From a virus, in IMG/VR virus record IMGVR_UViG_3300037189_008026, positions 1 through 44,206 of that record: a stretch of DNA of 44,206 nt. One strand, 5' to 3'. The notes below the pieces were generated by a model. The model saw nothing but the letters and a program-made list of their open reading frames with translations. It was not told the DNA's origin and ran no database searches. The position numbers and the translations under genes were made by a program. This document shows, piece after piece, positions 5,940-22,000 of this stretch; positions within the stretch are counted from its first letter, which is position 1; each line of letters begins with the position of its first letter.

Positions 5940-5946
5940 TGAGGCA

Positions 5947-6813: not shown

Positions 6814-6821
6814 ATGATTTA

Positions 6822-7016
6822 ATGAATTCTTTAGAACGGTCAATAACAGCCACTATACTAATTGGTTTTATATATGTGGTTCTTTTCTACGATTTTATTG
6901 ACCACTCAAATATAGTTGTTTATGATTGTGAACTAATAGAATATTATCACAATGTTCCCAAAGAAGTTAAAAAAGAATGTGATTCTCTAAAAAAAGTTCC
7001 ACCCTTAATAATATGA
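6822..7016 (+). CDS. Small single-pass membrane protein, 64 aa
   Basis: 64 residues with one hydrophobic helix at about 8-25 (TATILIGFIYVVLFYDFI) and a polar, Lys/Glu-rich tail (PKEVKKECDSLKKVPP). The ATG follows the preceding stop by 8 bases, and the stop overlaps the next start by ATGA. An N-in or N-out topology cannot be decided. No family recognised. Confidence 0.6.
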   Translation: MNSLERSITATILIGFIYVVLFYDFIDHSNIVVYDCELIEYYHNVPKEVKKECDSLKKVPPLII

Positions 7017-7540
7017 TTAGCAAAAGTCCAGAGCGGCACACCTTTCAGAAAAACGCATACATTAAAAGATGTCAGGAAGAAGGCAAAGTACCAAGCCCTG
7101 AAATTATTCAAATGTATGAAACTTGGGCCAATGAGCCCGAGTACGAAAATCGTCCAGTAAACGATTTAGAGTACGACCTGCGTACCACTGAATGGATTTT
7201 GGCTAAGGCACGAGCTAGCGATTCGTATGCCCAAAATATCTATGCCGCATTGTGTAATATGCGTTGGCAAAAATTAGATGTGTTGCCAATTTTGAAAGAT
7301 GAATTTTGGTCGTGTTCATGGCGTAGTGCAGGTGGCATTGTTGCAAATATGCTACAAAAAGGTGACTACATGGATTGGTATTGTAGTGGTATGGGTGGGG
7401 TTGCTACATACGATTTGCAAGAAGGTGAAGCGTACATGGCACGAATGAAGTATGTTCCAGAAGCTACTGTGACTGAAGAGATTCGAGAAGACTTCCAAAA
7501 ATTAGGTTGGGTCCCAAATGAGTGGCCCGAAGACGAATAA
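7013..7540 (+). CDS. Conserved phage hypothetical, 175 aa
   Basis: 175 residues, soluble. A distinctive, probably conserved core reads FWSCSWRSAGGIVANML followed by GDYMDWYCSGMGG; I recall the same SCSWR..GGIVA and DYMDWYCSG pattern in hypothetical proteins of aquatic phages. It ends VPNEWPEDE. The conserved Cys/Trp/Tyr residues could form a functional site, but no known enzyme family matches. It is the last gene before the promoter at 7557. Confidence 0.65.
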   Translation: MISKSPERHTFQKNAYIKRCQEEGKVPSPEIIQMYETWANEPEYENRPVNDLEYDLRTTEWILAKARASDSYAQNIYAALCNMRWQKLDVLPILKDEFWSCSWRSAGGIVANMLQKGDYMDWYCSGMGGVATYDLQEGEAYMARMKYVPEATVTEEIREDFQKLGWVPNEWPEDE

Positions 7541-7542
7541 TC

Positions 7543-7585
7543 GGTAAAATCAGTTGTTGACAACCAACAACTCTGACTGTATAAT
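7543..7585 (+). promoter_or_regulatory. Sigma70-like promoter with upstream box and dyad, before the 403-aa gene
   Basis: -35 TTGACA (7557-7562) and -10 TATAAT (7580-7585) are separated by 17 bp, a near-consensus promoter. The box GGTAAAATCAG (7543-7553) is identical to the one before rIIA and at the same distance from the -35. A perfect 8-bp inverted repeat (7552-7559 and 7565-7572, loop of 5) overlaps the -35. The gene's ATG is at 7616 with a TAAGGAG ribosome site. Confidence 0.8.
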
Positions 7586-7615
7586 ATATACATATTGTTA
7601 ATTAAGGAGCTCTAA

Positions 7616-8827
7616 ATGGCGACAAAAGCACCCGTTAAAAAATCTCGTGTGACCAAAAAGCAAGTTATTGCACATCGTGTGAATGCTAAGAAAGACCACA
7701 GCCCTGTTTGGGAAGGTGTGGAAACTATGACTGCTGAGGAATTTGGTCGCCACTGGCGCAATGCTATGTCATACTATCGTTTAGAGTTTAGTGGTAAAGA
7801 TCTCAAGCCCAAAGTCATTGACTGGATGGGCAAAGTAGGCTACGACAAAGATACAATCAAAGCCTTTAAAGACACAAAGGACCACCGTTGCAATAGCACA
7901 ATGGGTGGACTAGCCGCTTGTTTGCTTCGTGGCATGCCAGAAGTTCGTGCTGATTGGAACGAAGGACGTAATAGTGCTGATTGGTTGAAAGCTTCTATTA
8001 AGAAAGCAATTGAAGAAGGAACGTCAGACGAAACTGAAGAAGAACTTGCTGAAGCAAAATCAAAGAAAGTTGAAGTGTATGTGCCAAGTATTCAAGAACG
8101 CTTGCGTGAATCCGCTGGAAACATGACTGAAGAATTGGATGTTGCTATTGACGATTGGATCAGTAATCCAGAGCAATTTGATCCAAAAGCATTTAAGGTG
8201 ACCAATCTGTTGCGTGGCAAAGGTGCTAAGGCAGCTCATGCTCGAATCATTAAAGGCTTTTATACTAATAGCCAAGCAGAGTTGTTAGAGCTTGCTAGTG
8301 GCAATGCTGATGAACAATTGAAAGAAGCTTATAGTCATGTGGCACGTAAGAATGTGCGCAAACTGCTTGAGTTCTATCAAGCAATTATGGATGCTTGTGA
8401 ACAAATTGGTGCGGAAGCTAAACTTAACAAGAAGCCACGTGCTAAGAAGATCGTGCCTGCAGAAAAGTTGATTGCTAAACTTAAATTTTGCAAAACTGAT
8501 GACAGCCTTGGAATTGTGTCAGTGCCGCCGGCACAAATTATTGGCGCACAATCTATGTTTGTGTACAACATTAAGACTCGTAAATTTGGACAGTACATTG
8601 CTTTGAACAGTTCAGGTTTTGCTGTTAAGGGCACAACTGTTACTAACTTTACTGATAAGAGTACACAGAAAACTTTGCGTAAGCCTGCAGAACAACTCAA
8701 AGCGTTTAAAGATATGAACACGCAAAAACGTTGCCAAACTTGGTTTGAAAAAGAAGTTAAGACTACAGAAGTTAAACTTAATGGTCGATTCAATGAAGAT
8801 GTTGTAATTTTGAAAGTGTACAAATGA
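7616..8827 (+). CDS. Conserved phage hypothetical with basic N terminus, 403 aa
   Basis: 403 residues with a very basic N-terminal tail (MATKAPVKKSRVTKKQVIAH), a helical body and a beta-rich C-terminal third. It has a near-consensus promoter, a strong TAAGGAG ribosome site and is the first gene of its operon, so it is probably abundant early in infection. The basic tail and the lysine-rich linker at about 267-280 (AKLNKKPRAKKIVPAEK) suggest nucleic-acid or capsid contact, which is inference. Proteins of this size and start are found in related phages without assigned function. No enzyme motif was recognised. Confidence 0.7.
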   Translation: MATKAPVKKSRVTKKQVIAHRVNAKKDHSPVWEGVETMTAEEFGRHWRNAMSYYRLEFSGKDLKPKVIDWMGKVGYDKDTIKAFKDTKDHRCNSTMGGLAACLLRGMPEVRADWNEGRNSADWLKASIKKAIEEGTSDETEEELAEAKSKKVEVYVPSIQERLRESAGNMTEELDVAIDDWISNPEQFDPKAFKVTNLLRGKGAKAAHARIIKGFYTNSQAELLELASGNADEQLKEAYSHVARKNVRKLLEFYQAIMDACEQIGAEAKLNKKPRAKKIVPAEKLIAKLKFCKTDDSLGIVSVPPAQIIGAQSMFVYNIKTRKFGQYIALNSSGFAVKGTTVTNFTDKSTQKTLRKPAEQLKAFKDMNTQKRCQTWFEKEVKTTEVKLNGRFNEDVVILKVYK

Positions 8828-9078
8828 GTAAGGCAAAACATAAACCTTATCAGTGGATTGATGGGGAAACTGCGGATCGTATTACTAGCCTCAATCTAAA
8901 AGACTACCGTGCTTATTTGAAAAAAGAATTAGCACAGTGGAAAAAGAATCCTAAGACAGAAGATAACCCAGACGGCTACTGGTTACATCCAGAAGATGTT
9001 ACGGGTAATATGCGAAGGATTGAAGCACTGAATTTGATTATTAAAGACTTTATTGAAACATCGGATGAAATAAAATGA
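8824..9078 (+). CDS. Small conserved phage hypothetical, 84 aa
   Basis: ATGA overlap with the previous gene. 84 residues, mostly helical and charged: LNLKDYRAYLKKELAQWKKNP followed by a stretch GYWLHPEDV and a helix RRIEALNLIIKDFIE. The pattern suggests a helical hairpin with a short linker. No recognised family. The stop overlaps the next start in the same ATGA fashion. Confidence 0.6.
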   Translation: MSKAKHKPYQWIDGETADRITSLNLKDYRAYLKKELAQWKKNPKTEDNPDGYWLHPEDVTGNMRRIEALNLIIKDFIETSDEIK

Positions 9079-9692
9079 CACTGCCAGATGAAAGATATCG
9101 GGCTGTAGTACAGACTCAAAGATTTCTATTGCAAATATTGACTACCCCTCGGGTTCCAAAGGCAGTCAAGGATCAAGCTAGGTATTGTTTACGCCACTAT
9201 CCTAATGAATGGGATATGCAACGTGCGGCTGAAGGCAGTCCAGATGTTTTTCAAAAAAACATGGATGACCTGCATAAATTTTTGTTAAAAGGTAAAGTAA
9301 TGAAAGCAAACGAATTGTTTGAAAATATTGAACAACTGGCAACAGTTAGTGATGAGGCATTGGATAATGCATACCATTATGGACGTAGTACTCCTGGTGC
9401 AAACTTTGGCTGGCTTGCTAATATTGAAAGTGCCAAGGCTGCTTCTAAATTGATTAATGCTGGGGAGACAGACATTGAAGTAATTGCAGATGCAATTCAT
9501 GATGGTTGGAATATCACTGCAATAGCAGACTATAAGGGTATGCTAAAATTAGACACACCAACCCCAGACGAAAAGAAAGCAAAACGTTTTGCATTGGCAA
9601 GTAAGAGCTATGCACAACTCCCAGAAGACGAAAAAGAAAAGGATAGAGTAGTAGCAAGGGCACTGCTTAATTTTATTAAAGGTGTAAAATGA
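9075..9692 (+). CDS. BPSL0761-like N terminus fused to a RyR-like C-terminal domain
   Basis: Residues 1-65 (TLPDERYRAVVQTQRFLLQI, then RVPKAVKDQARYCLRHYP) match the small bacterial/phage family named BPSL0761, of unknown function. Residues about 135-205 resemble the RYR (ryanodine receptor) repeat domain found in phage proteins: an A.AIHDGWN start and a closing LPEDEKEKDRVVARALL. A helical linker with a Gly/Asn-rich loop joins them. The two parts are usually separate proteins, so this looks like a fusion. RYR repeats in phages have no known role. ATGA overlaps bind the gene to both neighbours. Domain calls are from pattern recognition alone. Confidence 0.6.
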   Translation: MTLPDERYRAVVQTQRFLLQILTTPRVPKAVKDQARYCLRHYPNEWDMQRAAEGSPDVFQKNMDDLHKFLLKGKVMKANELFENIEQLATVSDEALDNAYHYGRSTPGANFGWLANIESAKAASKLINAGETDIEVIADAIHDGWNITAIADYKGMLKLDTPTPDEKKAKRFALASKSYAQLPEDEKEKDRVVARALLNFIKGVK

Positions 9693-10129
9693 AAATTGGT
9701 CTGAGTTATAGTCGTTGCGTTCGAGATATCGTTGACGGCAAAGTTGACCTTGACGATGTTCTAGTTATTATTGCTCGCACAGATTTTGATCCACATGACG
9801 ATGATCAGTGGAAGAGCATTTGGGTTGGCTATGGTGGAGGCACAGAAAACGCTTACACACGTGGCTTTTTCAGTCATAGTAATCCAGAGTGGGCTGGATA
9901 TGATAATGAAGAAATGTTTCGGTTGATTAGTACTGAACTTTGGGATCAAGGTAAATTACATCAACCTAGAAAATTTGGAGCACATGCAAGTCGCCGACCA
10001 GAAATTTGGCTAGAAGCAGTTCTGCCTAGTAGTGAGTTAGAAACTAATCCTGCGGCTAAAATGGCATGGGACAAGTTTCAAACTATTGCTGGGTTGACAA
10101 ACGTTGAACTGGACGACAAGTATAAATGA
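9689..10129 (+). CDS. Conserved phage hypothetical, 146 aa
   Basis: 146 residues starting MKIGLSYSRCVRDIVDGKVD and containing the conserved-looking segments DVLVIIARTDFDPHDDDQW, KLHQPRKFGAH and RRPEIWLEAVLP. The same order of motifs recurs in hypothetical proteins of diverse tailed phages. The Asp/His cluster DFDPHDDD resembles a metal-binding loop but is not diagnostic. It overlaps its neighbours by ATGA on both sides and shares operon membership with the cytidylyltransferase that follows. Confidence 0.65.
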   Translation: MKIGLSYSRCVRDIVDGKVDLDDVLVIIARTDFDPHDDDQWKSIWVGYGGGTENAYTRGFFSHSNPEWAGYDNEEMFRLISTELWDQGKLHQPRKFGAHASRRPEIWLEAVLPSSELETNPAAKMAWDKFQTIAGLTNVELDDKYK

Positions 10130-10545
10130 AAATTGGATTTACATGTAGCACGTTTGATTTGTTTCATGCAGGGCATGTAATTATGCTTGAAGAAGCAAAG
10201 AAGCAATGTGACTTTTTAATAGTAGGTTTACAAACTGACCCAACCATTGATAGACCCAATACTAAAAACAAACCGGTACAAGGTGTGTTTGAACGTTGGA
10301 CCCAATTAAAGGCTTGCAAGTTTGTAGATCAAATTGTTCCATACAGTAGTGAAAAGGAATTGCTAGACCTATTGCAATCTTTTCCTATTGATGTTAGAAT
10401 AATAGGTGAGGAATACAAAGACAAATCTTTTACTGGTGATCATTTAGATATGGATTACCATTTTAATGAAAGACGACATAGTTTTAGTACAACAGAATTG
10501 CGCCAACGTGTGGTTGATGCAGAAAATAAAAAGGAAATAAAATGA
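10126..10545 (+). CDS. TagD-like glycerol-3-phosphate cytidylyltransferase family nucleotidyltransferase
   Basis: 139 residues, full length for the TagD family (about 130). The HxGH motif is present as HAGH (14-17) in the context [19 protein letters not shown], the IGEE element falls at 93-96, and the C-terminal STTELR signature at 121-126. These enzymes join a nucleotide (CTP in TagD) to a phosphorylated alcohol or sugar, e.g. making CDP-glycerol for cell-surface polymers. Related folds adenylylate other substrates (RfaE, FAD synthetase), so the exact substrate is open. Phage homologues may modify surface polymers or nucleotide pools during infection, which is inference. ATGA overlaps both neighbours, including clpP. 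Confidence 0.85.
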
Positions 10546-11162
10546 GTTTAGTCCCAATGGTAGTTGAAAAAAGTAATCAAGGTGAACGAGCCTATGACAT
10601 TTATAGTCGATTACTCAAAGACCGTGTTATATTTTTGAACGGCGAAGTAGAAGATTACATGGCAAATGTAATTATTGCACAACTACTATTCTTAGAAAGT
10701 GAGAATAGTGATTTGGATATTCACTTGTACATCAATAGTCCAGGCGGTAGCGTGAGTGCCGGTCTTGCAATTTATGACACTATGCAGTTCATCAAACCAG
10801 ATGTATGTACGTATGTCATGGGTCAAGCCTGTAGTATGGGCAGTTTCCTAGCACAAGCGGGTGCTCCTGGCAAACGAGTAGTACTTCCAGAATCACGCAC
10901 AATGATTCACCGTGTGAGCTCAGGTACACGCGGTACAAGTGGTAGTATTCACGTACAAGACTTGCAATTTGAAGATGCTAAACGTAGTTTTGAAGAAGCA
11001 CAACGTATCAACAAACGTCTAACAGAATTGTATGTACGTCATAATACAGTGGGCAAAACATACGAAGAGCTATTTGAAACTATGAAGTTTGATACTTTCT
11101 TGAGTGCCGCTGAAGCTGTTGCCAATGGTCTTGCTGATCAAGTGATTGCAAAACGTCCTTGA
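10542..11162 (+). CDS. clpP: ClpP-type serine protease, catalytic triad intact
   Basis: 206 residues, the size of bacterial ClpP (193-207). The nucleophile lies in GQACSMGSF (Ser98), the His in TMIHRVS (His123), and the Asp in [12 protein letters not shown] (Asp184), so the triad is complete. The [11 protein letters not shown] segment (65-74) is the usual oxyanion-loop region. ClpP forms tetradecameric chambers that degrade proteins fed by ClpX or ClpA. No Clp ATPase is visible in the window, so a phage particle would use a host ATPase or cap host chaperones. In related phages ClpP-like proteases have been proposed for host proteolysis or head maturation; neither is shown here. It ends the operon just before the late-type box at 11178. 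Confidence 0.9.
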
Positions 11163-11170
11163 CCTATCTG

Positions 11171-11192
11171 GTACGCAAATAAATATGCGTAC
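11171..11192 (+). promoter_or_regulatory. Candidate T4-type late promoter box inside a 7-bp palindrome
   Basis: The sequence GTACGCA-AATAAATA-TGCGTAC is a perfect 7-bp inverted repeat (11171-11177 and 11186-11192) whose 8-base loop is AATAAATA (11178-11185), close to the T4 late consensus TATAAATA. The ATG of the structural gene follows 18 bases after the box, behind TAGAGGA. The palindrome could equally stop readthrough from clpP or shape the mRNA leader. Confidence 0.5.
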
Positions 11193-11203
11193 TAGAGGAA
11201 AAT

Positions 11204-12283
11204 ATGGCAGGTCCAGCGTTTAACAGCAATCAGCTAATCAAAAACATACGTCCAGACCAACTGGACATACGTAAAGGGGAACTATCCGGAGATTTAATTT
11301 CGGGTGGTTCCATTTCTACGTTTGCTTCTACTGGTATTAAAGATGAAGCAACAAAAATTTCTCTTGTTGTCAAAGACAATGAAATAATTGTTGACAACAT
11401 CACTACCAAACAATTATCAGGAAATATCTTAGTTGAAGGTAACTTACAAGTATCTGGTCAAATAACTGCTGACCGTTTACACGTTTTGGAATTGACATCT
11501 GAAAGAACCTATGATAAGATGTATTTGGAATTTCAACCAGTAGACACTGCGAGAAACCCAAATGGTAGTGGTCTTATTTGGAAGGGCACAGACTACACCA
11601 AACTGTTTGTATTAAAGACTGATAAATTTTTTAGTAGCGAACACATTGATCTACACGCTGATAAAAGTTTTAAAATTGACAATGTTGACGTACTAACAAA
11701 AAATACTTTAGGATCAACTATACGAAAAAGTAGTCTTAGAGAGATTGGAACATTGCACCATTTAACAGTGAGCGGTGACGTAAGTTTGGCTGACTTTGTA
11801 ACTTTTAGCAGTGATCAACAAAGAATATCAATTAACGTTGAACAACCTGTAGGTACCATTACTATAGGTGATATTATGCAAGACGTTATTATGAACATAG
11901 ATGTTGATAATGGTCGTGCTAAGATTGGTACTTATAATAATAGACCATTTGATTTAACTGCTGGTGATCAAACATTAGTAACGTTAGATCCAAAAGGTAT
12001 AGTCAGTGTTGGACATGAGTATAAAACAGATACTGAAATTCGTCTTTATGGCAAAGTAGGCATCAATGTAAAACATCCTGAAGCAGATTTAGATGTTAAG
12101 GGTAGTATAAGATTTGGTAATAAACTTTTCATGGTATATAATTCTCCTCCAGAAAAAGGTAACTACAAAAGAGGGGACATCGTTTGGAACGAATCTCCTT
12201 CAGTTAATTCACCTTTAGGCTGGGTATGTATAGTGTCAGGTTCGCCTGGCAAATGGGCATCATTTGGGGACATTCATGAATAG
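11204..12283 (+). CDS. Fibre-like virion structural protein, 359 aa
   Basis: Beta-rich protein beginning MAGPAFNSNQLIKNIRPDQL, with repeated short strands such as ISGGSISTF, NILVEGNLQVSGQ and a C-terminal GKVGINVKHPEADLDVKGSI that resembles the GIGT..P...L.V.G pattern of phage fibre tips. The end reads GNYKRGDIVWNESP...LGWVCIVSGSPGKW, a small carbohydrate-binding-like or tip module common at fibre termini. It is preceded by a late-type box, as are the larger fibres downstream. Likely a short tail fibre or baseplate-attached fibre protein; exact position in the virion is unknown. Family membership rests on repeat pattern rather than a catalytic motif. Confidence 0.7.
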   Translation: MAGPAFNSNQLIKNIRPDQLDIRKGELSGDLISGGSISTFASTGIKDEATKISLVVKDNEIIVDNITTKQLSGNILVEGNLQVSGQITADRLHVLELTSERTYDKMYLEFQPVDTARNPNGSGLIWKGTDYTKLFVLKTDKFFSSEHIDLHADKSFKIDNVDVLTKNTLGSTIRKSSLREIGTLHHLTVSGDVSLADFVTFSSDQQRISINVEQPVGTITIGDIMQDVIMNIDVDNGRAKIGTYNNRPFDLTAGDQTLVTLDPKGIVSVGHEYKTDTEIRLYGKVGINVKHPEADLDVKGSIRFGNKLFMVYNSPPEKGNYKRGDIVWNESPSVNSPLGWVCIVSGSPGKWASFGDIHE

Positions 12284-12623
12284 GCATATTAAAACAGACA
12301 AAATTAAAAAACAAACTACTTATTGGCTTTGGTTTGGACGAGTAAGTCCAATACTATTTCTTATTGGATCTTTTTCATTATTTGAAATTTTCAACACCGA
12401 AGTACCATTCATTTTCTATTCCAGTTGGATAGTTTTCGTTACAGTATCATTAATTTGGTGGGCATGGGTACTTAGGACCATTTTAGAGTTTATTAAATTT
12501 TTTCAAGAAGTCAGTCTCTCTGTTGAAGATATAAAAGACAATATAAAAGAAGTTCAACAGAGCGTAACAACTTTGAGAGATTTTGAGATAGAAATAAACA
12601 AAAAGATTGACAATCCTAAATAA
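12276..12623 (+). CDS. Two-helix membrane protein with C-terminal coiled coil, 115 aa
   Basis: The ATG at 12276 (MNRHIKTDKIKKQT) is chosen over 12264 because it overlaps the preceding stop and has GGGGACA upstream. Hydrophobic segments lie at about residues 20-38 (FGRVSPILFLIGSFSLFEI) and 47-68 (FIFYSSWIVFVTVSLIWWAWVL region). The remainder, about 75-115, is a charged heptad-like helix (EVSLSVEDIKDNIKEVQQSV) ending DNPK. The promoter of the following gene starts inside its last codons. Function unknown; a membrane-anchored coiled coil beside structural genes could be a superinfection or lysis factor, but nothing proves it. Confidence 0.65.
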   Translation: MNRHIKTDKIKKQTTYWLWFGRVSPILFLIGSFSLFEIFNTEVPFIFYSSWIVFVTVSLIWWAWVLRTILEFIKFFQEVSLSVEDIKDNIKEVQQSVTTLRDFEIEINKKIDNPK

Positions 12624-12634
12624 TAATGTATAAT
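12607..12634 (+). promoter_or_regulatory. Sigma70-like promoter before the QueD-family gene
   Basis: TTGACA at 12607-12612 and TATAAT at 12629-12634 match consensus exactly, with a 16-bp spacer. The -35 lies in the end of the preceding coding region. Transcription would begin near 12641, giving a leader of about 65 bases before the ATG at 12708. Confidence 0.75.
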
Positions 12635-12639
12635 TAATA

Positions 12640-12707
12640 CATGCGGCCTTAGGCATTCATCCCGCAATATAAATTCTGCATGTCATTGTTCATAAAGGAA
12701 AACAACA
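12640..12707 (+). other. Leader of the QueD-family gene with possible RNA structure
   Basis: The 5' leader holds two competing complementary pairs: GCGG (12643-12646) with CCGC (about 12663-12666), and an outer CATGC (12640-12644) with GCATG (about 12676-12680). It is followed by AAAGGA and the ATG. QueD genes in bacteria are often under preQ1 riboswitches, so a check is worthwhile, but this leader does not show the A-rich tail of the known preQ1-I class. Regulatory role is unproven. Confidence 0.25.
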
Positions 12708-13247
12708 ATGGCAAAATATCTTTCAACAAAAACATACGGCAATGATCGTGGACTTTCATGCTGTTTCAGACAGTGGCGTAGCACACATAGTCACTGCTCA
12801 TTACTACACGGATATTCAATTGGTATTAAATTAATTTTTGAATCCGAGACACTAGATGATCGTAACTGGGTTATGGATTTTGGTGGACTAAAAGCATTCA
12901 AAGAGTGGAGCGAATACATGTTTGATCATACTTTGGTGCTTGGTGTTGATGATCCACATTTAGAAAAATTTAAAACACTTGCGGCACTTGGTCTTAATGA
13001 TGTGGGCGGAGTTTGCGACATTCGTATCGTAGAAGCTGTAGGCTGTGAAAAATTTGCTGAATTGGCTTACAAAACTATGCAAGACATTTTGGAAACTTTC
13101 CAAAAGGGCGAAGGTTGGGAACTAAAAGACCAGTCTGGCAAAACATTAAAGTTGTTCGGTGCTCGTTATCCAGTTGGCGCAGGTGTTAAATTGCGTTCAG
13201 TAGAAGTTTTTGAACACGCCGGTAACAGTGCTGTTTATGAAGGATAA
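12708..13247 (+). CDS. queD: 6-carboxy-tetrahydropterin synthase (QueD)/PTPS-family protein with an atypical metal site
   Basis: 179 residues. QueD converts dihydroneopterin triphosphate to 6-carboxy-tetrahydropterin in the 7-deazaguanine (queuosine, archaeosine, preQ0) pathway. The core segment THSHCSLLHGYSIGI carries the catalytic-type Cys30 and His34, but the usual HGH is HGY (Tyr36), so one canonical zinc ligand is replaced; His27 or His29 may substitute. Other family hallmarks follow: NWVMDFGGLKAFKEW, FDHTLVLG and VEVFEHAGNSA. A branch of bacterial proteins annotated QueD shares this SHC..LHGY pattern, so activity may differ from E. coli QueD. No other queuosine gene is in the window. 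Phages use 7-deazaguanines to modify DNA or tRNA, which is possible here but unproven. It has its own promoter and leader. Confidence 0.75.
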   Translation: MAKYLSTKTYGNDRGLSCCFRQWRSTHSHCSLLHGYSIGIKLIFESETLDDRNWVMDFGGLKAFKEWSEYMFDHTLVLGVDDPHLEKFKTLAALGLNDVGGVCDIRIVEAVGCEKFAELAYKTMQDILETFQKGEGWELKDQSGKTLKLFGARYPVGAGVKLRSVEVFEHAGNSAVYEG

Positions 13248-13253
13248 ACTTTC

Positions 13254-13583
13254 ATGAAACATAGTATCTGCGACATTGGCGGTGTCGTAGTTAAGGATAA
13301 CGAAACTTATGTCCTTAAAGACAACACCTTTCTTAAAAACTTAATTTTAAGTTCAACAGACTTAAAACCTAAACAAAGCACTCGCGGTCACAAACATCCT
13401 GGACAAGAAGAAGTTTATTATTTTGTCAACGGGAGCGGTATAATGGAATTAGACAACGAAAAGATACCAGTTTGTCCAGGGGACGTTATACTAATCAAAG
13501 ATGGAGTATTCCATAGAGTACATAACACAGAAGAAGAAAATCTTTATTTCGTTTGTGTATTTGACGGGAAGAGAAATCATTAA
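13254..13583 (+). CDS. Small cupin-domain protein, 109 aa
   Basis: A single cupin barrel with both conserved motifs: motif 1 GHKHPGQEEVYYFVNGSG gives the two His and Glu metal ligands, and motif 2 PGDVILIKDGVFHRVHN gives the PGD turn and the third His. Cupins of this size can be sugar isomerases, dioxygenases or metal-binding regulators; substrate cannot be told. It lies 7 bases after the QueD-family gene and shares one base with the next start, so it belongs to that operon and may act on the same pathway, which is inference. Confidence 0.8.
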   Translation: MKHSICDIGGVVVKDNETYVLKDNTFLKNLILSSTDLKPKQSTRGHKHPGQEEVYYFVNGSGIMELDNEKIPVCPGDVILIKDGVFHRVHNTEEENLYFVCVFDGKRNH

Positions 13584-13774
13584 TGAATTCTTTTGAAAAA
13601 ATATGGGCCCGGGCAACTGGGCACTTAATGGGACAGACCGACGAAGATCGTCCAGATGTTCCTATACTCACACTACGAGAAGCAAGAACAGCGTTGTTTC
13701 TCAAAACATTTTGGGTAATCATTCATGTTGTAACCTGTTGCTTCATTATTGCTAATACTATCAGGCATTGGTGA
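13583..13774 (+). CDS. Small membrane protein, 63 aa
   Basis: The N-terminal half is soluble and has a pattern seen in other aquatic phages (EKIWARATGHLMGQTDEDRP, then DVPILTLREARTAL). The C-terminal half is one hydrophobic helix at about residues 40-59 (LKTFWVIIHVVTCCFIIANT) ending RHW. This N-out/N-in single-pass protein overlaps the cupin stop by one base. Function unknown. Confidence 0.65.
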   Translation: MNSFEKIWARATGHLMGQTDEDRPDVPILTLREARTALFLKTFWVIIHVVTCCFIIANTIRHW

Positions 13775-13783
13775 TTAATCCAG

Positions 13784-13812
13784 TTGACATTCAAGGGCAT
13801 AGATGTTATTAT
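13784..13812 (+). promoter_or_regulatory. Sigma70-like promoter of the UV-endonuclease gene
   Basis: TTGACA (13784-13789), 17 bp, TATTAT (13807-13812). A longer open frame that begins at 13784 would use the -35 TTG as its start codon; the presence of this promoter supports the internal start at 13841 instead. Confidence 0.65.
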
Positions 13813-13840
13813 AACACTATGTCCTTTTTTATTGGTTATT

Positions 13841-14857
13841 ATGATTAAACGTATAGGTTTCGCATGTAAGTGGATTGATCGCCCTGATCAAGTAGATGGT
13901 ATCAAGCCAACCGACGATTGTAAGCAATATAACACTGGCGCTACCACCATTACTTGGTTAAATAAACAAACAAAAGAAGTTGCTGAACAAAAACTATGGG
14001 ACCTAATGGTCCAAAACTTAGAAGCAACACGATTACTTGTTGAAAGGGTAGGCAAACAACATGAAAGACTCCGCATGGTTCGCCTTAGTAGCGACATTCT
14101 TCCTGCTTATACCCAATCTGATTGGAGTTATTTTTGGAGTAAACCTGACGTTGTTGAGTATCTTGAACGCAATTTCATCCTTATTGGTGATAGTGCTCGT
14201 GCAAGCAATACCCGTGTTTCTATGCATCCTGGTCAGTTTACTGTTCTTGCTAGTGATAATCCGGACATTGTTCGGAGAAGTATAGAGGAGTTTGAATATC
14301 ATGCAGATATGGTCAGGTACATGGGCTACGGTAAACAATTTCAAGACTTTAAAATTAATGTCCACATCTCGGGTAGAGCCGGTCCCGAAGGTATTCGAGC
14401 TGCCTACAAAAAACTTTCCCCTGAAGCAAGAAATTGCATCACAATTGAAAACGAGGAAATGAGCCATGGGTTATCTACTTGCTTGTCTCTTGGTGATCTT
14501 CTTCCTATCGTACTTGATATACATCATCACTGGATTAAAGAAGGTGAATACATCATGCCAAATGACCCAAAAGTACAGCAAGTACTTGACAGTTGGCGTG
14601 GTCTTCGCCCTACTATGCACTATAGTATTAGCAGGGAAGATGTGCTTGTTGATCACTGCACTCTAACTAAACCCAATCACGAAGCTCTTTTAGAGTCCGG
14701 ATACAAAAAACAAAAACTTAGGGCACACAGTAACTTCTATTGGAATAAGGAAGTTAATGATTGGGCATTGAGTTTTAATGATCAATTTGATATCATGTGC
14801 GAGAGCAAGGCTAAAAATTTAGCCAGCAAAGCTCTTTTTGATTATTCCAATACATGA
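13841..14857 (+). CDS. uvdE: UV damage endonuclease, UVDE/UvsE family
   Basis: 338 residues from the ATG at 13841, near the size of bacterial UvsE (about 300-340). These TIM-barrel, metal-dependent enzymes nick DNA 5' of UV photoproducts, starting an excision pathway independent of UvrABC. The start RIGFACKWI is typical. Metal-binding residues are present in order: His in SMHPGQF, His in INVHISG, Glu in TIENEE, the Asp and His of VLDIHHHW, and a His in TMHYS. The start is chosen for this N terminus and because the promoter occupies the upstream extension. It would repair sunlight damage in an aquatic phage, as T4 does with the unrelated DenV. Two hydrophobic out-of-frame ORFs inside it are judged shadows. 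It ends just before a terminator. Confidence 0.88.
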   Translation: MIKRIGFACKWIDRPDQVDGIKPTDDCKQYNTGATTITWLNKQTKEVAEQKLWDLMVQNLEATRLLVERVGKQHERLRMVRLSSDILPAYTQSDWSYFWSKPDVVEYLERNFILIGDSARASNTRVSMHPGQFTVLASDNPDIVRRSIEEFEYHADMVRYMGYGKQFQDFKINVHISGRAGPEGIRAAYKKLSPEARNCITIENEEMSHGLSTCLSLGDLLPIVLDIHHHWIKEGEYIMPNDPKVQQVLDSWRGLRPTMHYSISREDVLVDHCTLTKPNHEALLESGYKKQKLRAHSNFYWNKEVNDWALSFNDQFDIMCESKAKNLASKALFDYSNT

Positions 14858-14880
14858 TCACGTGATTAAGCAATCACACA

Positions 14881-14906
14881 AAAACCCGCACTAGGCGGGT
14901 TTTTTG
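14881..14906. terminator. Bidirectional rho-independent terminator
   Basis: CCCGC (14885-14889), loop ACTAG, GCGGG (14895-14899), followed by seven T (14900-14906) and preceded by an A-run, so it works on both strands. It separates uvdE from the convergent histone-like gene. A smaller hairpin GTGATT-aagc-AATCAC lies just upstream at 14862-14877. Confidence 0.85.
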
Positions 14907-14931
14907 TTGCCAAGAAGATTATAACTGATAG

Positions 14932-15210
14932 TTACGAAGTCTTCTTAGGCGCCCTAGGTTTAGTACCAACTTTCTTTACAGCTGGTGCTTTTGCTGGGGC
15001 TTTTGGTTTTGGAGCTGCCTTAGGTTTTGCAGGTGCCTTAGCTTTAGCGGGAGCCTTTTTAGTTGCTGGCGCTTTTTTAGCTGGGACAATTGATTCAACC
15101 ACAGCCTGAGTTGCTTGTTCTGCAACAGGTGCGGGTGTTTCAACTTTATAAGGAACTTCTGCTGTTACTGGCTTCTCTGAACCAAATAATGATTTTAGAA
15201 ATTTAATCAT
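14932..15210 (-). CDS. Histone-H1-like Ala/Lys/Pro-rich protein, 92 aa
   Basis: Minus-strand gene with an AAGGAGATTAAATT ribosome site before its ATG. Residues 1-11 (MIKFLKSLFGS) form a short amphipathic helix, 12-42 are mixed and partly acidic, and 43-92 are low-complexity AKKAPA / PAKAKAPAKPKA repeats closing with KPRAPKKTS. This composition matches eukaryotic H1 tails and bacterial HU-tail/AlgP-type proteins that bind DNA through lysines. It could condense DNA or compete with host nucleoid proteins, which is inference. The N-terminal amphipathic helix would also fit membrane contact. It is isolated on this strand between two plus operons and ends at the bidirectional terminator. No clear promoter was found upstream. 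Confidence 0.7.
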   Translation of the reverse strand: MIKFLKSLFGSEKPVTAEVPYKVETPAPVAEQATQAVVESIVPAKKAPATKKAPAKAKAPAKPKAAPKPKAPAKAPAVKKVGTKPRAPKKTS

Positions 15211-15303
15211 AATTTAATCTCCTTGTATTTTAATTATGCCTACAGATTGTTCGATAAATAAAATTGTGAAAGCATTGAAACAAAATATGCAGTTATAATA
15301 CAG

Positions 15304-15332
15304 TTGACTTAATGAGATATTGGTGCTACAAT
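15304..15332 (+). promoter_or_regulatory. Sigma70-like promoter of the Fe-S assembly operon
   Basis: TTGACT (15304-15309), 17 bp, TACAAT (15327-15332). It is the only good promoter between the minus-strand histone-like gene and sufC, whose ATG is at 15380. No Fur- or IscR-like operator was recognised by eye. The host-like form implies early or middle expression, unlike the fibre genes that follow. Confidence 0.7.
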
Positions 15333-15379
15333 AATGAATGTGGGCCACGAACTACAATAACAATAAGGTTCAATTAGTT

Positions 15380-16105
15380 ATGTTAAAAATTACAAATCTC
15401 TCCGTCAATTACGACGTTATTCCAATTTTGGAAGATATCAATTTAGAAATCAACGAAGGCGAAATTCACGCTATTCTAGGACCAACAGGATCTGGAAAAA
15501 GTTCCTTGGCAAGTACAATAGCTGGTAAAACAGACCTCAGTGTTGTTAAAGGAAAAATAAACTTTAAAAGAAAATCTTTGAACAGTTTAAATCCAAATGA
15601 AAGAAGTAAGTTAGGAATTTTTACAACCTTTCAAGAACCTCCTGAAATTAATGGGATCACAAATTTAAATTTAACCAGACAAATTTTAAATGCTCGTAAT
15701 GACAAAAGATCATCAACTGACATTATTAATGATTACAAAAGTTTAATAAAACAATTTGATCTAGGAAGCGAATGGTCCAATCGAGATTATAACGTAGGAG
15801 CAAGTGCAGGCGAAAAAAAGAAAAATGAAATTGTACAGTTACACATGCTCAATCCATCTCTTACAATTTTAGACGATATTGACAGTGGTTTAGACTTAGA
15901 CACACTAACCGAAGTATTTAAAAGTTTAAAAACTTTCCTATCACAAAAAGGAAAGGCAGCTATCATTATCACACATCAACCAACGATCCTTGAAGCAATC
16001 GAGCCCACCCATGTGCATGTTATCATAGATGGAAGAATCGTAGAGTCAGGTGATAAGAAACTAATTAAAAGGATCATTTCAAATGGCTATCGAGAGTTTT
16101 CTTAA
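15380..16105 (+). CDS. sufC: SufC-like Fe-S assembly ABC ATPase with altered catalytic motifs
   Basis: 241 residues from the ATG at 15380 (MLKITNLSV, typical SufC start); the upstream start at 15338 adds an unrelated Asn-rich tail. SufC is the cytosolic ATPase of the SufBCD scaffold. Visible: Walker A GPTGSGKS (34-41), Q-loop FTTFQEPPE with Gln85, an ABC signature ASAGEKKKNE (141-150) where SufC usually has FSGGEKKRNE, Walker B LTILDD followed by IDSGLD, and the switch His199 in IITHQ. The catalytic Glu after the Walker B Asp is Asp166. The 17-residue agreement around GEKKKNE and IDSGLD makes SufC much likelier than a transporter ATPase. The first signature Gly and the Glu are altered, so activity may be slow. 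sufD overlaps its 3' end by 23 bases. Confidence 0.88.
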   Translation: MLKITNLSVNYDVIPILEDINLEINEGEIHAILGPTGSGKSSLASTIAGKTDLSVVKGKINFKRKSLNSLNPNERSKLGIFTTFQEPPEINGITNLNLTRQILNARNDKRSSTDIINDYKSLIKQFDLGSEWSNRDYNVGASAGEKKKNEIVQLHMLNPSLTILDDIDSGLDLDTLTEVFKSLKTFLSQKGKAAIIITHQPTILEAIEPTHVHVIIDGRIVESGDKKLIKRIISNGYREFS

Positions 16106-16907
16106 AGTTGATTCACAAGACCCAGATTGGTCAAACAGTCCCACTCAGTACTTTGGTAAAAAATTTAAGGTCATTGATGCAAATTGCTTAATGATAAAAG
16201 AAAATACTGATGACTTAATGGTTCTACGTATGAACCCAACTGAGTCAGATTTGCTGTGTAAAAATTTGCAAGTTCTTGGAAAAGATAGTAGTAGATTAGA
16301 TTTGTTTATTTTATGTGACGGATCTAAAAATACTCAACAGGTTTTTATTTACAATGTAACTGCTGAGCCAGATTCAATTATTAATATTGGAATTTTTGTT
16401 AAGGACGGAAAACTTAATAAGCATATTTTTGAATGTGAACTTTATGAGAATTCTGTTATTAACATTTTTGGTCTTGCAGAAAACGAAGTTGGTGGCAGTA
16501 GTGAAATCATAAGCAAAGTTTACCATGCAGGTCCTTGTGCAGAGAGCAACACATTTGTAAACAGTATTGCTGGAAAAAATAGTCGAACTGTTTTTCAAGG
16601 CATTGTCAAAATTGAAGAAGACATGATAGACAGTGTTGCCAGTGTAACTAACACTAGTATTACATGTGATGAAACTGCCCAAGCATTTAGTACTCCGCAA
16701 ATGATAATTGATTGTGGACAAGTGAGAGCATATCATAACTGTGAAGTCAACACTGTTGACGAAAATAACATATGGTATTTAGAAAGCAGGGGAATTGATA
16801 GAAGTAGTGCTGAAACTCTATTAAAAACGTTGCATCAAGATAGTGTGTTGGACCTTGTTGAATATCAAGACATTAGAGATGAACTCAAAGATTTTTTCCA
16901 AAGTTAA
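16083..16907 (+). CDS. sufD: SufD-like Fe-S scaffold component, short form
   Basis: 274 residues, much shorter than E. coli SufD (423). The C-terminal two-thirds match the SufBD beta-helix core: HAGPCAESNTFVNSIAG, a segment SRTVFQGIVKIEED, then AFSTPQMIIDCGQVRAYHNC and the closing IWYLESRGIDRSSAETLL. The last motif (SRGI) is more SufD-like than SufB-like. SufD's SHG motif, whose His matters for cluster formation in E. coli, is here YHNC (His218, Cys220). The N-terminal helical domain is largely missing. SufD normally pairs with SufB and SufC; no SufB is in the window, so it would form a homodimer or pair with host SufB. Overlaps with sufC and sufS show tight coupling. Confidence 0.8.
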   Translation: MAIESFLKVDSQDPDWSNSPTQYFGKKFKVIDANCLMIKENTDDLMVLRMNPTESDLLCKNLQVLGKDSSRLDLFILCDGSKNTQQVFIYNVTAEPDSIINIGIFVKDGKLNKHIFECELYENSVINIFGLAENEVGGSSEIISKVYHAGPCAESNTFVNSIAGKNSRTVFQGIVKIEEDMIDSVASVTNTSITCDETAQAFSTPQMIIDCGQVRAYHNCEVNTVDENNIWYLESRGIDRSSAETLLKTLHQDSVLDLVEYQDIRDELKDFFQS

Positions 16908-18027
16908 AAGCGATTTTACTTTACCAGACAAAACATACTTAAACAGTGCATCACAAACTTTAATTCCTAATCAAGTAAAAAATTCCTACCTTGATATTTG
17001 TAATAAAATTGATGCAAGGAAAGAGTATGAAAATGTTAGACAAAAAGTAAAACTACTAATTAATTCTAAAAAAGATAATGAAGTAGTTTTTACTCAAGGC
17101 AACAATCATAGCATTAATATGATTGCCAAAAGTATTTGTCATAAATGGCATTCAAATGATTGTGTAATTGTTCCTGAAAGTGAGCATCATGCCAATTTAC
17201 TCATTTGGCAATACATGTCAATTGAATACGGTTTTAGATTTGAAACTGTAAATGTTATCAAAGACGGCAGCATGGATCTTGGTCATCTTGAAGACTTGCT
17301 AGACAGTTGTGATGGTAAAATATTGTTCAGCATGAGTCACATATCCAACAGCATTGGATATGTACAGCCTGTTAAGAGTATTTTTGACAAGGTTAAAGAG
17401 TATGACGGAATAACTCTACTAGATGCAAGTTTGAGCATTGGTAGAGAATTGATAGATGTGCAAGAGTTTAATATTGATTTTCTAACATTTACTGGTCATA
17501 AATTTTATGGTCCAACTGGTGTTGGTATATTATATGGCAAGCAAAAATATTTAGACAAGTTAGAGCCTACTATATTAGGCGACAGTAATAGCACATTATT
17601 ACCATGGAAATTAGAAATTGGTAAACCTAATATTGCAAGTGTAGTTATGTTAGGTTCAGCAATTGATTGGTTTACATCATATGATTTAGAAAGTTTTCAT
17701 ACCTACGATAAACTTATGAATGCAAATTTTCAAATGATGTTAAATGAATTAGACTTTGTAGAAATATTTCATCCTGGTTATTATAAGGGAGGATTAATTG
17801 GATTTAATCTACATGGACACCATCCTGCGTATGTGGGTGAATTTTTGTCTAATGAAGGTATTGTATTAAAATATGGACATTTGAATGCAAGACCTATTGT
17901 AGAAGAAAAGTTCCCAAATGGTATACTTAGATTAAGTTGGGCCTGCTATAATACTAAAGAAGACGTTGAACAATTAAGGCAAGGACTTATAAAATTCTAC
18001 GATAAATATAGTTCTAAAAGGACATAA
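16879..18027 (+). CDS. sufS: SufS-like class V aminotransferase fold protein, catalytic Cys apparently lost
   Basis: 382 residues from the ATG at 16879. SufS removes sulphur from cysteine through PLP and passes it on from an active-site Cys. The fold is clear: TYLNSASQTLIP start, EHHANLLIWQ (His103/104), FTGHKFYGPTGVGILYG with the PLP Lys208, and RLSWACYNTKEDV at the end. Three departures stand out. The loop that is GHHC in SufS reads KYGHLNARPI, so Asn336 replaces the catalytic Cys. The VDGAQ motif is LDASL, losing the PLP-contacting Gln. The NVHRGxH segment after the first helix is missing. A Cys at 356 lies two residues from where a helix usually begins, not at the loop. It may not be a normal desulfurase; it could deliver sulphur differently, act as a regulator, or do other PLP chemistry. 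Confidence 0.82.
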   Translation: MNSKIFSKVKSDFTLPDKTYLNSASQTLIPNQVKNSYLDICNKIDARKEYENVRQKVKLLINSKKDNEVVFTQGNNHSINMIAKSICHKWHSNDCVIVPESEHHANLLIWQYMSIEYGFRFETVNVIKDGSMDLGHLEDLLDSCDGKILFSMSHISNSIGYVQPVKSIFDKVKEYDGITLLDASLSIGRELIDVQEFNIDFLTFTGHKFYGPTGVGILYGKQKYLDKLEPTILGDSNSTLLPWKLEIGKPNIASVVMLGSAIDWFTSYDLESFHTYDKLMNANFQMMLNELDFVEIFHPGYYKGGLIGFNLHGHHPAYVGEFLSNEGIVLKYGHLNARPIVEEKFPNGILRLSWACYNTKEDVEQLRQGLIKFYDKYSSKRT

Positions 18028-18030
18028 AAT

Positions 18031-18420
18031 ATGGCTTATTCTTCACAAGTAATTGATCATTATGAAAACCCTAGAAACGTAGGTTCATTTGATAAAAATG
18101 ATAATGATGTTGGAACTGGTATGGTTGGAGCTCCTGCTTGTGGTGACGTTATGAAATTGCAAATTAAAGTTAATGAACAAGGTATTATTGAAGATGCAAA
18201 GTTTAAAACTTATGGGTGTGGTAGTGCTATTGCTAGTTCTAGTCTTGTCACCGAGTGGCTCAAGGGCAAGAACTTGGATGAGGCACAAGCCATTAAGAAC
18301 TCAGATATCGCTACTGAACTTGCGTTACCGCCCGTTAAGATTCACTGTTCAATATTAGCAGAAGATGCTATCAAAGCCGCAGTAGCAGATTATAAAGCTA
18401 AACATGATAACACTATCTGA
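18031..18420 (+). CDS. iscU: IscU-type Fe-S cluster scaffold
   Basis: 129 residues, full length for IscU. This protein builds a [2Fe-2S] cluster from sulphur supplied by a desulfurase and passes it on with HscA/HscB. All conserved ligands are present: Cys37 with Asp39 in GAPACGDVM, Cys63 in [10 protein letters not shown], and His105/Cys106 in [12 protein letters not shown]. The LPPVK motif (99-103) that binds HscA is intact, so it could engage host chaperones. SufU-type proteins have a longer insert and lack LPPVK, so this is IscU proper, not SufU, even though it follows suf genes. The start ATG lies 3 bases after sufS, and iscA overlaps its end by 17 bases. Confidence 0.93.
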
Positions 18421-18724
18421 ACAAGCTGCCAATAGGGTAAAAGCAACTCTAGAAAAGCGTGGTAAAGGACTAGGGATTAGATTAGGGGTCAAAACTACAG
18501 GTTGTAGTGGCATGGCCTATATGATAGAATTTGTAGATACTCCTACCACTGATGATATGAGCTTTGTTAGTTACGGAGTTCATGTGTTTGTAGATCCAAA
18601 AAGTTTAGCATACCTTGATGGTGTACAAGTGGAATGGGTTAAGAAAGGTCTTAATGAAGGCTTTGATTTTACCAATCCTAACGAACGTGATCGTTGTGGT
18701 TGCGGGGAAAGTTTTAGAGTTTAA
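18404..18724 (+). CDS. iscA: A-type Fe-S carrier, IscA/SufA family
   Basis: 106 residues, standard for IscA. A-type carriers accept clusters from IscU or SufBCD and hand them to apo-proteins. The three conserved Cys are at 34 (TTGCSGMAY) and 98 and 100 (RCGCGESF), and the PxxxxRCGCG ending is canonical. IscA, SufA and ErpA cannot be separated with certainty by eye; the [14 protein letters not shown] ending is closest to IscA. The gene overlaps iscU by 17 bases and ends tail-to-tail with the zinc-ribbon gene, sharing 4 bases. It completes the five-gene Fe-S operon. Confidence 0.92.
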
Positions 18725-19008
18725 ATCTTTCCAATTGGCAAAGTACTGCTAACTGGCATATCCCATATTTTTCTTTTAGTAATGCCCATTCGTTGGGCAA
18801 ATTTTTTGACGTCACAATCACCACATACGTGGAAATATTTGTTGCTGAGTCTTTTGGGATCTATTTTAGCATGATCTCTTGTAAAATCCTTGTCGCAATT
18901 GTCACAGCGAAACACATTGATTGTTTTTGTTCTAGTATACTGGTGTTCTTTTCCCAGTTTACTGCTTCGAACATACTTGGAAATTTCTTTAAAAGATCTT
19001 ATGAACAT
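18721..19008 (-). CDS. Zinc-ribbon protein, 95 aa
   Basis: Minus-strand gene between the Fe-S operon and the giant fibre. Residues 34-67 hold two CxxC knuckles, [10 protein letters not shown] and HVCGDCD, about 26 residues apart, typical of a treble-clef/zinc-ribbon fold. A conserved ending ([18 protein letters not shown]) is shared with small proteins lying among structural genes of aquatic T4-like phages, as I recall. It might bind DNA or be an HNH-like remnant, but the HNH His/Asn are absent. The same Cys could hold Fe-S rather than Zn, noteworthy next to an Fe-S operon but unproven. Coding ends overlap iscA by 4 bases. Confidence 0.7.
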
Positions 19009-19041
19009 GCCATTATTTACATTAAGTTTATAAAACTATAA

Positions 19042-19049
19042 GGTAAATA
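19042..19049 (+). promoter_or_regulatory. Candidate late-type box before the giant fibre gene
   Basis: GGTAAATA lies 40 bases before the ATG at 19090. It partly fits the TATAAATA late consensus but the spacing is longer than for the three other candidate boxes (18-19 bases). A GTAAATAA also faces the opposite way at 19013-19020, just upstream of the zinc-ribbon gene. Weak on its own. Confidence 0.3.
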
Positions 19050-19089
19050 AAGTGGACAGTTGGTATATCACCCAAATTTGGAGTTAATA

Positions 19090-22000
19090 ATGGCAAGAAA
19101 AGACGTTAATATTGGTTTAACAGGTAACGATGGAACAGGTGACAGCATACGTGATGCGTTTTCCAAAGTTAATGCAAATTTCCAAGAACTTTACGCTAGT
19201 CAAGGTCTAGAGGCCGGACTAACATTTGATAACTTAGTTGACGTTATCAAACCACTTAGACCTAACACAGTTTTAGGCTTAGACAGCTTAGGAAAAACTA
19301 TTGTTAGTAGAGATTTAGAAGCGGCTGTTGGTATTAGTATTGACACCGTCAGTGATCCGTCTAAGATAATCTTTAGTATTGCCAACGTTCAAATTAGACA
19401 AGACCCAACACCAACACTGTCAAACGTACTAGATGGAAGTGGGTTCAAACTAAGTTTCATTGGTGATCCAGAAAATGACCAAGATGCTGTTACTAGAAAA
19501 TGGGTATACCAAAATTTCTTAAACAGAGATAACATTGACAAGTTAGGTACATTTGACCTAGCCGCTGGCAGTGTCATGCGTCAAAATTTCAAGATCAGTC
19601 CAACTCCAGATAACGGCAATATTAATGCTGGTACAAAAATTATTAATGTTTTTGGTTCAGATGGCGTTACACCAAAAACTGATGTTCAGTTAAAGTTTCA
19701 AGCAACACACCCTGCTCATGCAACTCGAAAAGATTATGTAGATACCAAGCTGTCATTACAAGGTACTGAGACATTAGATCCAGCAACTGGCTTTGTAAAC
19801 AAAGGCATGGGTGTGATGACAGGTCCATTGATTTTAAATGATCACCCTGGACAGTATGTTGAAATTGATAGGAAGCCAGATGGCACACTGTTCGTACAAG
19901 AAGATTATAGAGCAGCCACAAGAGGGTATGTTGATTCCAAAACGTATTCTGCCGCAGGTAACATATTTGTCAGTACAAAAGGTAATGACGACATGTGGGA
20001 TTTTGACAACAATCGTCCAAATCCCATTTATGGATATCCTGAGGAAGAAATTGGACGTAGTTGGAGTAAAGCATTTAAATCAGTAAATGCCGCGTGTCGT
20101 TATGCAACACGAATTATAGATGCTGTTGAATTACAAAATATTCCATATCAAGTTACTCCACAACAAATTTCACGTTGGGCTCCTCCATTTACAACGCCAA
20201 TTACAAGTCCAAGAACTCGTGTGCGTGTTAGCTTACAAAATCACGGATTCAAAGATGGAGACTACGTTTTAGTTAGCGGAGCTATCTTAGGATCTTTAGA
20301 CACAAGAAATTTAAACGGTATTCACAGAGTTAATGCGTTAGATGTTAACAATTTTGAATTAAATTTAAAATCACTGGTAACATGGCCAAATCCAGAAGTT
20401 GCACCTGGCGGCACTATTAGTATTTCGTTGGCTAATAAAAAGGACGGTCCTTACAGTGAAATTTCTAAGGTTGACTTTGGCTTTAGAGGATTCTTTGTAC
20501 CAAAACCTGAAATTACTATTATGGTTGAATCAGGAGTTTACTTTGAAGAAGCTCCTATGTTTGTTCCACCAAACTGTGCTATTAAGGGCGATGAATTTAG
20601 ACGTACTTTAATTAAACCAAAGCCAGGACCAGTTAATCCTGATAATCAGCTTACTAAATTTGTTCGTGGTGATAGAAGTCAAAGTGCTACCTTTTGGTAT
20701 AACTCACACTACTACAATCAATTGTCAAGATCAGTTGGAACCACTAACGTGGTTGGTAGTACAAAATTAGAAATTAAAAATAGTCCTTATAGACCAAAGA
20801 GTGGTATGCGATTTATTGTGGGTACTCTTGGTGGTATACCAAACGTATATCGAGTTGGACGTGAAGTTAACATTGTTTACAAAGAACCAAATCCAGATTT
20901 AAATATTGCTCCTGGAACATATATCATGGACATCGTTGATGACAACGGTGATCCAAAACCATTGGCAACTGGTATTCCAGATTCAACAACTATAGAATTC
21001 TTGTTAGACCACGAACACTGTGATGCCATGCTTGTTGCTGATGCATTCCAGTTGCGTAATATAACAGTTATAGGATTTAAGGGCTTTGCTATGGCCTTTG
21101 ATCCTAAGAGACAAATTAAAACACGTTCTCCTTATGCTCAAGTTGGCGCTGTATTTGCTGGAGAAGGTGGTGGTGGTCAGTTGGTTGACGGTATGTCTGG
21201 TAACCAAGTATGTTATGTATTAGACACTAGTTATACTGATCCGTTTACTGGAACACAAGGTTCTAGTGGACTTAAAATGACTGTTACTGGATTAGTACGT
21301 ACTCCTGAAACTCCAAATACATTTTTCTTGGCTAAGAAAAAATATGTCATTATCGATTCCACAACTCCAGATTCCAACGGTACTGCTACATTAACTTTAA
21401 GTACTACAACTCCAATTGAAGTTGATGATACTTATTTGCCTGCAGGTTTTATTCCAAACGGTTCTCAAATTTTAATTGAAACTGCTGGTAACCGATCAAT
21501 GTTGTCTAACGACTTTACCATGATTAACGATTTAGGTTATGGTCTTGTGTGTGAAAATAACGGTGTTGCAGAAGCAGTTAGTCAATTTACATACTATTGC
21601 CGTGCCAGCTATTTGTCTAGATCAGGTGGACAAATTCGTTCGGTAACAGGATCAAGTTGCTATGGTATTATTGGTTTACAATCTGAAGGTAGCGATCCTA
21701 ACGAAGCTATTCAGATTGGTAGAATTAAAACTGACATTGGTAACATCATGCAGGTTTACATTGATGATCCTAGTGCAGATGGCAACCAAGGTGCCGTAAG
21801 TTTGGTAATGGGAGGTTTGGCAAGTAAGCCTATAAGAAACTCTACATTCAAATTAACCAAACACGAAATCATTATTAAAAATATTGCTCGAGCAAGATTG
21901 AGTGGTGGTACACTAACAACTGGGCCGCTAGTTGTAACAACATATTATCCTCATCCTTTCTCAACTGGAGAGAGTGTACAAATGACCAGTGTGAGAGGAT

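Follow-up and report, generated by a model that had tools for sequence, protein, structure and literature searches.

A phage SufS derivative without the catalytic cysteine, maintained under selection beside SufC and SufD

We describe a 382-amino-acid protein of a freshwater phage, here named SufS*, which derives from the cysteine desulfurase SufS and no longer carries its catalytic cysteine. Our preferred reading, drawn from sequence comparison and given a probability of about 60%, is that a former desulfurase, inherited within a complete phage SUF operon, was repurposed for a role other than desulfuration beside SufC and SufD. We are close to certain that SufS* is not a SufS-type desulfurase, and it very probably has a selected function. 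We also lean toward a function seated in its PLP or ligand pocket rather than that of a pure scaffold.

The gene lies in a window of 44,206 nucleotides, a 44-kb virus contig analyzed at its whole length, which belongs to a tailed phage with genes for RIIA/RIIB, a clamp loader, PhoH, an endolysin, virion proteins and a giant tail protein. The SufS locus recurs with 100% identity on a 245-kb contig. In the window, five genes arranged head to tail (sufC, sufD, sufS*, iscU and iscA) separate UvdE from the giant tail gene. At the coordinates given by the preliminary description, sufS* (16879..18027, on the plus strand, as are all features with dotted coordinates below; Pfam Aminotran_5, 1.1e-78) is a single open frame, with its ATG at 16879 and its stop at 18025-18027. 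Upstream, sufC (15380..16105) scores 255 bits against the NCBIfam sufC model, above the cut-off, and a sufD-like gene of 274 amino acids (16083..16907) matches Pfam SUFBD_core at 2.5e-28, with NCBIfam sufD as the best model though under its cut-off. The sufD-like gene overlaps sufC by 23 bases and sufS* by 29, and because the related phage L007 has identical overlaps, the start codon of sufS* at 16879 is supported. Downstream follow iscU (18031..18420), an ISC-type scaffold gene that scores 228.3 bits against the NCBIfam iscU cut-off of 192.4 and encodes the expected Cys motifs and LPPVK, and iscA (18404..18724), an A-type carrier gene (NCBIfam IscA, 161 bits; cut-off, 150.6). Genes for ClpP, a QueD-like PTPS and a cupin are found at 10542-13583, just upstream of UvdE and the suf genes; in other phages, ClpP and Grx have been linked with Fe-S metabolism (PMC5332604).

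Residues were mapped to E. coli SufS by HMMER and MAFFT alignments, with E. coli numbers taken from the HMMER alignment. Both place Asn336 (codon 17884..17886) on Cys364: the reactive loop RxGHHCA reads KYGHLNARP in SufS*, and the nucleophilic Cys is Asn across the whole Cys-less clade (3/3 representatives), as against Cys in 40/40 other proteins. The preliminary description had noted this GHLN loop, as well as the change of VDGAQ to LDASL, which sets Leu185 (17431..17433) on Gln203, a PLP contact that is Gln in 40/40 Cys-containing homologues. Two further PLP contacts are replaced. Asn75-Asn76 (17101..17106) stand for Thr94-Thr95 at what we take to be the PLP phosphate site (Thr95 in 40/40), and Lys249 (17623..17625) stands for Thr278 (Thr or Ser in 40/40). 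Arg359 has become Lys331 (17869..17871), S223 is T, and D28, whose E. coli number is inferred from the alignment, is N. The PLP-lysine segment FTGHKFYGPTGVG is intact, as had been claimed, with Lys208 (17500..17502) aligned on E. coli Lys226; D200, H123, H225, N175, N99 and R379 are likewise retained as D182, H103, H207, N157, N80 and R351. All 40 aligned Cys-containing homologues, from bacteria and many phage or virus lineages, keep C364, R359, Q203, T95, K226 and T/S278, and among the aligned proteins, loss of such residues is confined to the window and its relatives L002-L006 and L012.

These relatives are the six further contigs with the Cys-less state, at 100% (L002), 93% (L003-L006) and 67% (L012) identity; an assembly or sequencing error is ruled out, as all seven contigs agree. 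The alignment revealed no other Cys moved into the reactive loop. The sole Cys new to the whole Cys-less clade, C95, stands at the start of the strand before His103. Cys356, in WACYN, had been put forward as a substitute nucleophile, an idea we reject: this Cys is ancestral, since the Cys-containing proteins of L007, L014, L092 and L037 have it, and the Cys-less L012 has His there.

Two segments of the protein have also gone. The missing NVHRGxH stretch near the N terminus, also seen earlier, proved to be a clean 13-residue deletion relative to Cys-containing phage relatives (junction at 17017..17022), through which the alpha3-alpha4 loop, including H55 and R56, is lost. At the site of the beta-latch (E. 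coli 251-266; here 17578..17601), a total of 10 residues are deleted. In addition, the HxxD motif on helix alpha16 that docks SufE/SufU is broken, with H315 retained and Asp346 changed to Tyr318 (17830..17832). R56, which lies in the alpha3-alpha4 loop, touches the substrate sulfur and guides SufE (PMC11408855), the beta-latch (G251-T266) shields the persulfide and positions SufE (PMC10011822), and SufE binding is lost in a D346A mutant (PMC11408855). Given these roles, nearly every known element that makes, protects or transfers the persulfide has been removed together. There is strong support for the view that SufS* cannot function like an ordinary SufS.

An AF2 model of SufS* built from 33 sequences (pLDDT 93.3, pTM 0.92) found its best PDB matches in E. 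coli and B. subtilis SufS, with a TM score of 0.92 by query length, at a sequence identity to bacterial SufS of only ~30%. Within the core, confidence is lowest where the beta-latch has been replaced (blocks of 75-83), and there the model shows neither the hairpin nor any strand. By NCBIfam, the best match is sufS (TIGR01979) at 273.6 bits, below the cut-off of 475.1. SufS* appears to have preserved the fold of SufS, with PLP probably still bound at Lys208. It shares with type II SufS of E. coli and B. subtilis the fold, the PLP lysine, the equivalents of Asp200, His123, His225 and Arg379 and the place in a suf operon, and differs from it in lacking Cys364, the R56 loop, the beta-hairpin, Gln203, Thr95, Thr278, Arg359 and Asp346 as well as SufE and SufB in the operon.

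The ancestry of SufS* can be read from other phages. At the same place before the giant tail gene, L007, L014, L092 and L037 carry sufB-(grx)-sufC-sufD-sufS-sufE-sufT-sufA; their SufS proteins are 48-56% identical to SufS* and, unlike it, retain the Cys together with all family-invariant residues, in the company of SufB, SufE, SufT and SufA. These complete SUF operons span L007:2009-7445 (plus a CGFS glutaredoxin), L014:5874-10980, L037:1289-6477 and L092:3021-8169, all in freshwater phage contigs. More distant sufB-C-D-S-T sets occur in the marine contigs L090, L093, L099, L101, L104 and L110. The Cys-less proteins group as a single clade in the SufS tree (100/100), with L007 plus L014 as their sister (100/94) and L092 and L037 outside. 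SufS* is thereby nested among Cys-containing phage SufS, which places its descent from SufS and makes loss of the Cys a single derived event within phages.

The Cys-less clade has lost SufB, SufE, SufT and SufA, and the window-type phages have gained IscU-IscA. The 245-kb and 214-kb contigs encode a single SufBD-core protein, the sufD-like one; no sufB is present at its syntenic position or anywhere on the two contigs, which likewise lack SufE and a second class-V protein; the absence of SufB and SufE holds for these contigs, and either could lie outside them or come from the host. The second Cys-less sublineage, L012/L038 (IMGVR 3300012665_001571), is represented by L012, a contig of 4.7 kb whose sufC contains an assembly gap of Ns and where no sufE, iscU or iscA follows sufS* on the short sequence available; two well-separated Cys-less sublineages are known in all. 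A conserved CxxC-rich ORF of 95 amino acids sits on the minus strand (18721-19008) between iscA and the giant tail gene of the window, without a PHROG match; similar CxxC-rich ORFs are present in L012/L038 and in L014.

Wider searches added no members. A scan of viral contigs with a DNA pattern for PIVEEKF gave no further Cys-less proteins, and two scans of bacterial genome contigs gave no Cys-less form and one distant Actinomarina SufS, with peptide patterns so weak that absence from bacteria is not established. A protein search of INPHARED returned only Cys-containing SufS among the hits aligned, many of them apparently bacterial contamination. One such record, MW495066.1 (L069, deposited as a Microcystis phage), carries sufBCDS-iscU, panB and panC and looks like bacterial sequence deposited as phage. 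Likewise, several unverified Listeria, Staphylococcus and Enterococcus phage records hold a normal bacterial SufS within bacterial-looking sequence.

The fast evolution of sufS* on the stem branch, together with the loss of SufB, SufE, SufT and SufA, could be taken to mark SufS* as a decaying, functionless remnant of a lost SUF operon. In relative-rate tests against the Cys-containing sister with L092 as outgroup, sufS* of the window has 79 unique changes to 38 (p = 1.5e-4) and that of L012 has 75 to 37 (p = 3e-4); the acceleration is confined to sufS*, with none in sufC, sufD or the tail gene. Between the window and L003, however, dN/dS of sufS* is 0.046-0.049 at a dS of ~0.8, compared to 0.044-0.048 for sufD, 0.06-0.075 for sufC and 0.045 for UvdE. 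Together with open frames in all seven contigs and conserved new residues, these low ratios lead us to reject pseudogene decay, which we consider exceedingly improbable. An early burst on the stem that gives way to strong constraint is the pattern of a change in function.

Constraint is also visible at the level of single columns. The Cys-less clade keeps 24 of the 35 family-invariant columns, K208, D182, H103, H207 and R351 among them, and has changed 10 of the 35 in all three representatives, compared to none in the seven Cys-containing phage relatives checked. At eight of the nine changed columns that are not gaps, both sublineages carry the identical new residue. Although the two sublineages are only 67% identical overall in sufS*, their pockets agree at 21/22 positions versus 232/353 (66%) elsewhere (p = 0.0016, which is indicative only: the pocket positions were picked from homology to E. 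coli SufS with the changes already known, and this inflates the test).

The neighboring SufC has diverged as well. Its signature SGGE reads SAGE (15806..15808) and its Walker-B Glu is Asp (15875..15877), as in L003, while the L012 protein lacks the signature and the H-loop His; SGGE and a Walker-B DE are present in 12/12 SufC proteins of Cys-containing phages. A Walker-B change from Glu to Asp is a typical mark of degenerate nucleotide sites among ABC proteins. The window SufD keeps a His at the position that we take to be E. coli His360, and the L012 SufD has lost it. Compared to a SufBCDSE system, the locus lacks both the SufB scaffold and intact ATPase motifs in SufC. Such erosion within one clade, extending in L012 to the signature, the H-loop and the SufD His, and the conserved overlapping arrangement of sufC-sufD-sufS* would suit a pseudoenzyme without PLP that has only a structural or regulatory role toward SufC-SufD, within a module devoid of catalysis. 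We find this rather unlikely, given that it is the pocket, and not just the surface, which is fixed between the sublineages and that Lys208, Asp182, His103 and Arg351 are all kept.

Next to sufS*, in place of sufE, the window and L003 have iscU-iscA. Comparing the pair at 18031-18724 of the window with 9153-9837 of L003, we observed ~72% DNA identity in iscU versus mostly 87-93% in the surrounding genes; by this comparison, iscU-iscA is a cassette swapped between the window phage and L003, with breakpoints at the gene borders. The motif set of the phage IscU is intact. A decoy that binds the host SufE/SufU or IscU had been proposed for SufS*, and in an extended form SufS*, with SufC, would bind SufE/SufU, SufB or the host SufS, poison the SUF pathway of the host and shift Fe-S supply to ISC with the phage IscU and IscA. 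The adjacent cassette fits this scheme, a SufC whose Walker-B Glu is Asp might block SufBC2D, and the beta-latch deleted here normally acts on the site of the partner subunit (PMC10011822). Nonetheless, the window has Tyr at the SufE-docking Asp346 and L012 has Tyr at another docking residue, H343, the low identity to bacterial SufS makes heterodimers unlikely, the phage has an IscU of its own, and SUF in the host is an assumption. We therefore hold the decoy to be very doubtful.

Our preferred reading of a repurposed desulfurase starts from what the sequences show: the parts for making and transferring a persulfide (Cys364, the R56 loop, the beta-latch and Arg359) have been given up along with SufE, SufB and competent SufC motifs. 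PLP would presumably sit on Lys208, with Asp182, His103 and Asn157 retained. Arg351, the arginine for the substrate carboxylate, could hold an amino acid or a similar ligand in the open pocket, and sulfur would not be carried. SufS* would then be a non-desulfurase subunit, engaged in new PLP chemistry or in ligand sensing, beside a SufC-SufD pair without SufB, and host IscS would supply sulfur to the phage IscU-IscA. That host IscS feeds the phage IscU seems likely, with IscS assumed for a host still to be identified. More tentatively, the phage SufC-SufD-SufS* may form an assembly with sulfur transfer and ATP turnover switched off, in which SufS* has a new pocket function (PLP chemistry or metabolite sensing) and either regulates host Fe-S assembly or is a new enzyme in it, beside a swappable IscU-IscA cassette. 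The earlier suggestion of a non-sulfur PLP enzyme is favored by the retained K208, D182, H103, H207, N157 and R351 and by the changed pocket fixed between sublineages, and stays open. As a counterpoint, because Gln203, Thr95 and Thr278 are all replaced, the PLP cofactor may have been lost and the pocket may have some other use or none. A precedent for new chemistry on the desulfurase fold is given by UstD (7mkv), a desulfurase-like PLP enzyme; it is a distant fungal protein with a different reaction and a weak profile match to SufS* (6.9e-18).

Sulfur chemistry without a Cys also has a precedent. The cyst(e)ine C-S-lyase C-DES of Synechocystis is a NifS-like PLP protein that, like SufS*, has no nucleophilic Cys, and it supports Fe-S formation (PMC8300815). 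SufS* could by analogy act as a lyase at an open site, releasing sulfide or free persulfide to feed IscU, whose gene adjoins sufS*. In keeping with this, disruption of the beta-latch opens SufS to solvent and makes SufE dispensable (PMC10011822), and the Cys-aldimine still arises in SufS C364A (PDB 6o11). On the other hand, R56, which contacts the substrate sulfur (PMC11408855), is deleted, and R359 is Lys. C-DES, moreover, is no close relative in sequence, is described as a monomer and is not SUF-derived. Among the best 60 structure matches by sequence, no chain is named C-DES or cystine lyase, and the nearest solved relatives are all SufS or CsdA. A lyase of this type thus appears improbable to us.

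Individual Fe-S genes are no novelty in phages. IscU and A-type carriers are known from marine T4-like environmental phages, which have the same IscU/IscA-type auxiliary genes and for which no SUF core or altered SufS was described (PMC5332604), and sufE unaccompanied by sufS is on record from viromes (PMC8940887). A search of open-licence papers turned up neither a complete phage SUF operon nor a Cys-less SufS, nor any account of such an operon turning into a Cys-less module that lacks SufB and is under purifying selection. As for possible clients, clusters of four to five radical-SAM-like genes were seen in both long relatives of the window (G001 contig, 5845-15884; G002 contig, 7273-20994), and these proteins of the 245-kb and 214-kb contigs are possible recipients of Fe-S clusters.

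Taken as a whole, these phages offer a polarized natural series that leads from a full phage SUF operon, through loss of the scaffold and sulfur partners, to a SufS without sulfur-handling elements under strong selection. The series opens the question of what a desulfurase does without sulfur to direct test in a single small protein. That whole SUF systems reside in phages, which can change over to an ISC-type scaffold, is relevant to the way viruses commandeer the iron-sulfur supply of their hosts.
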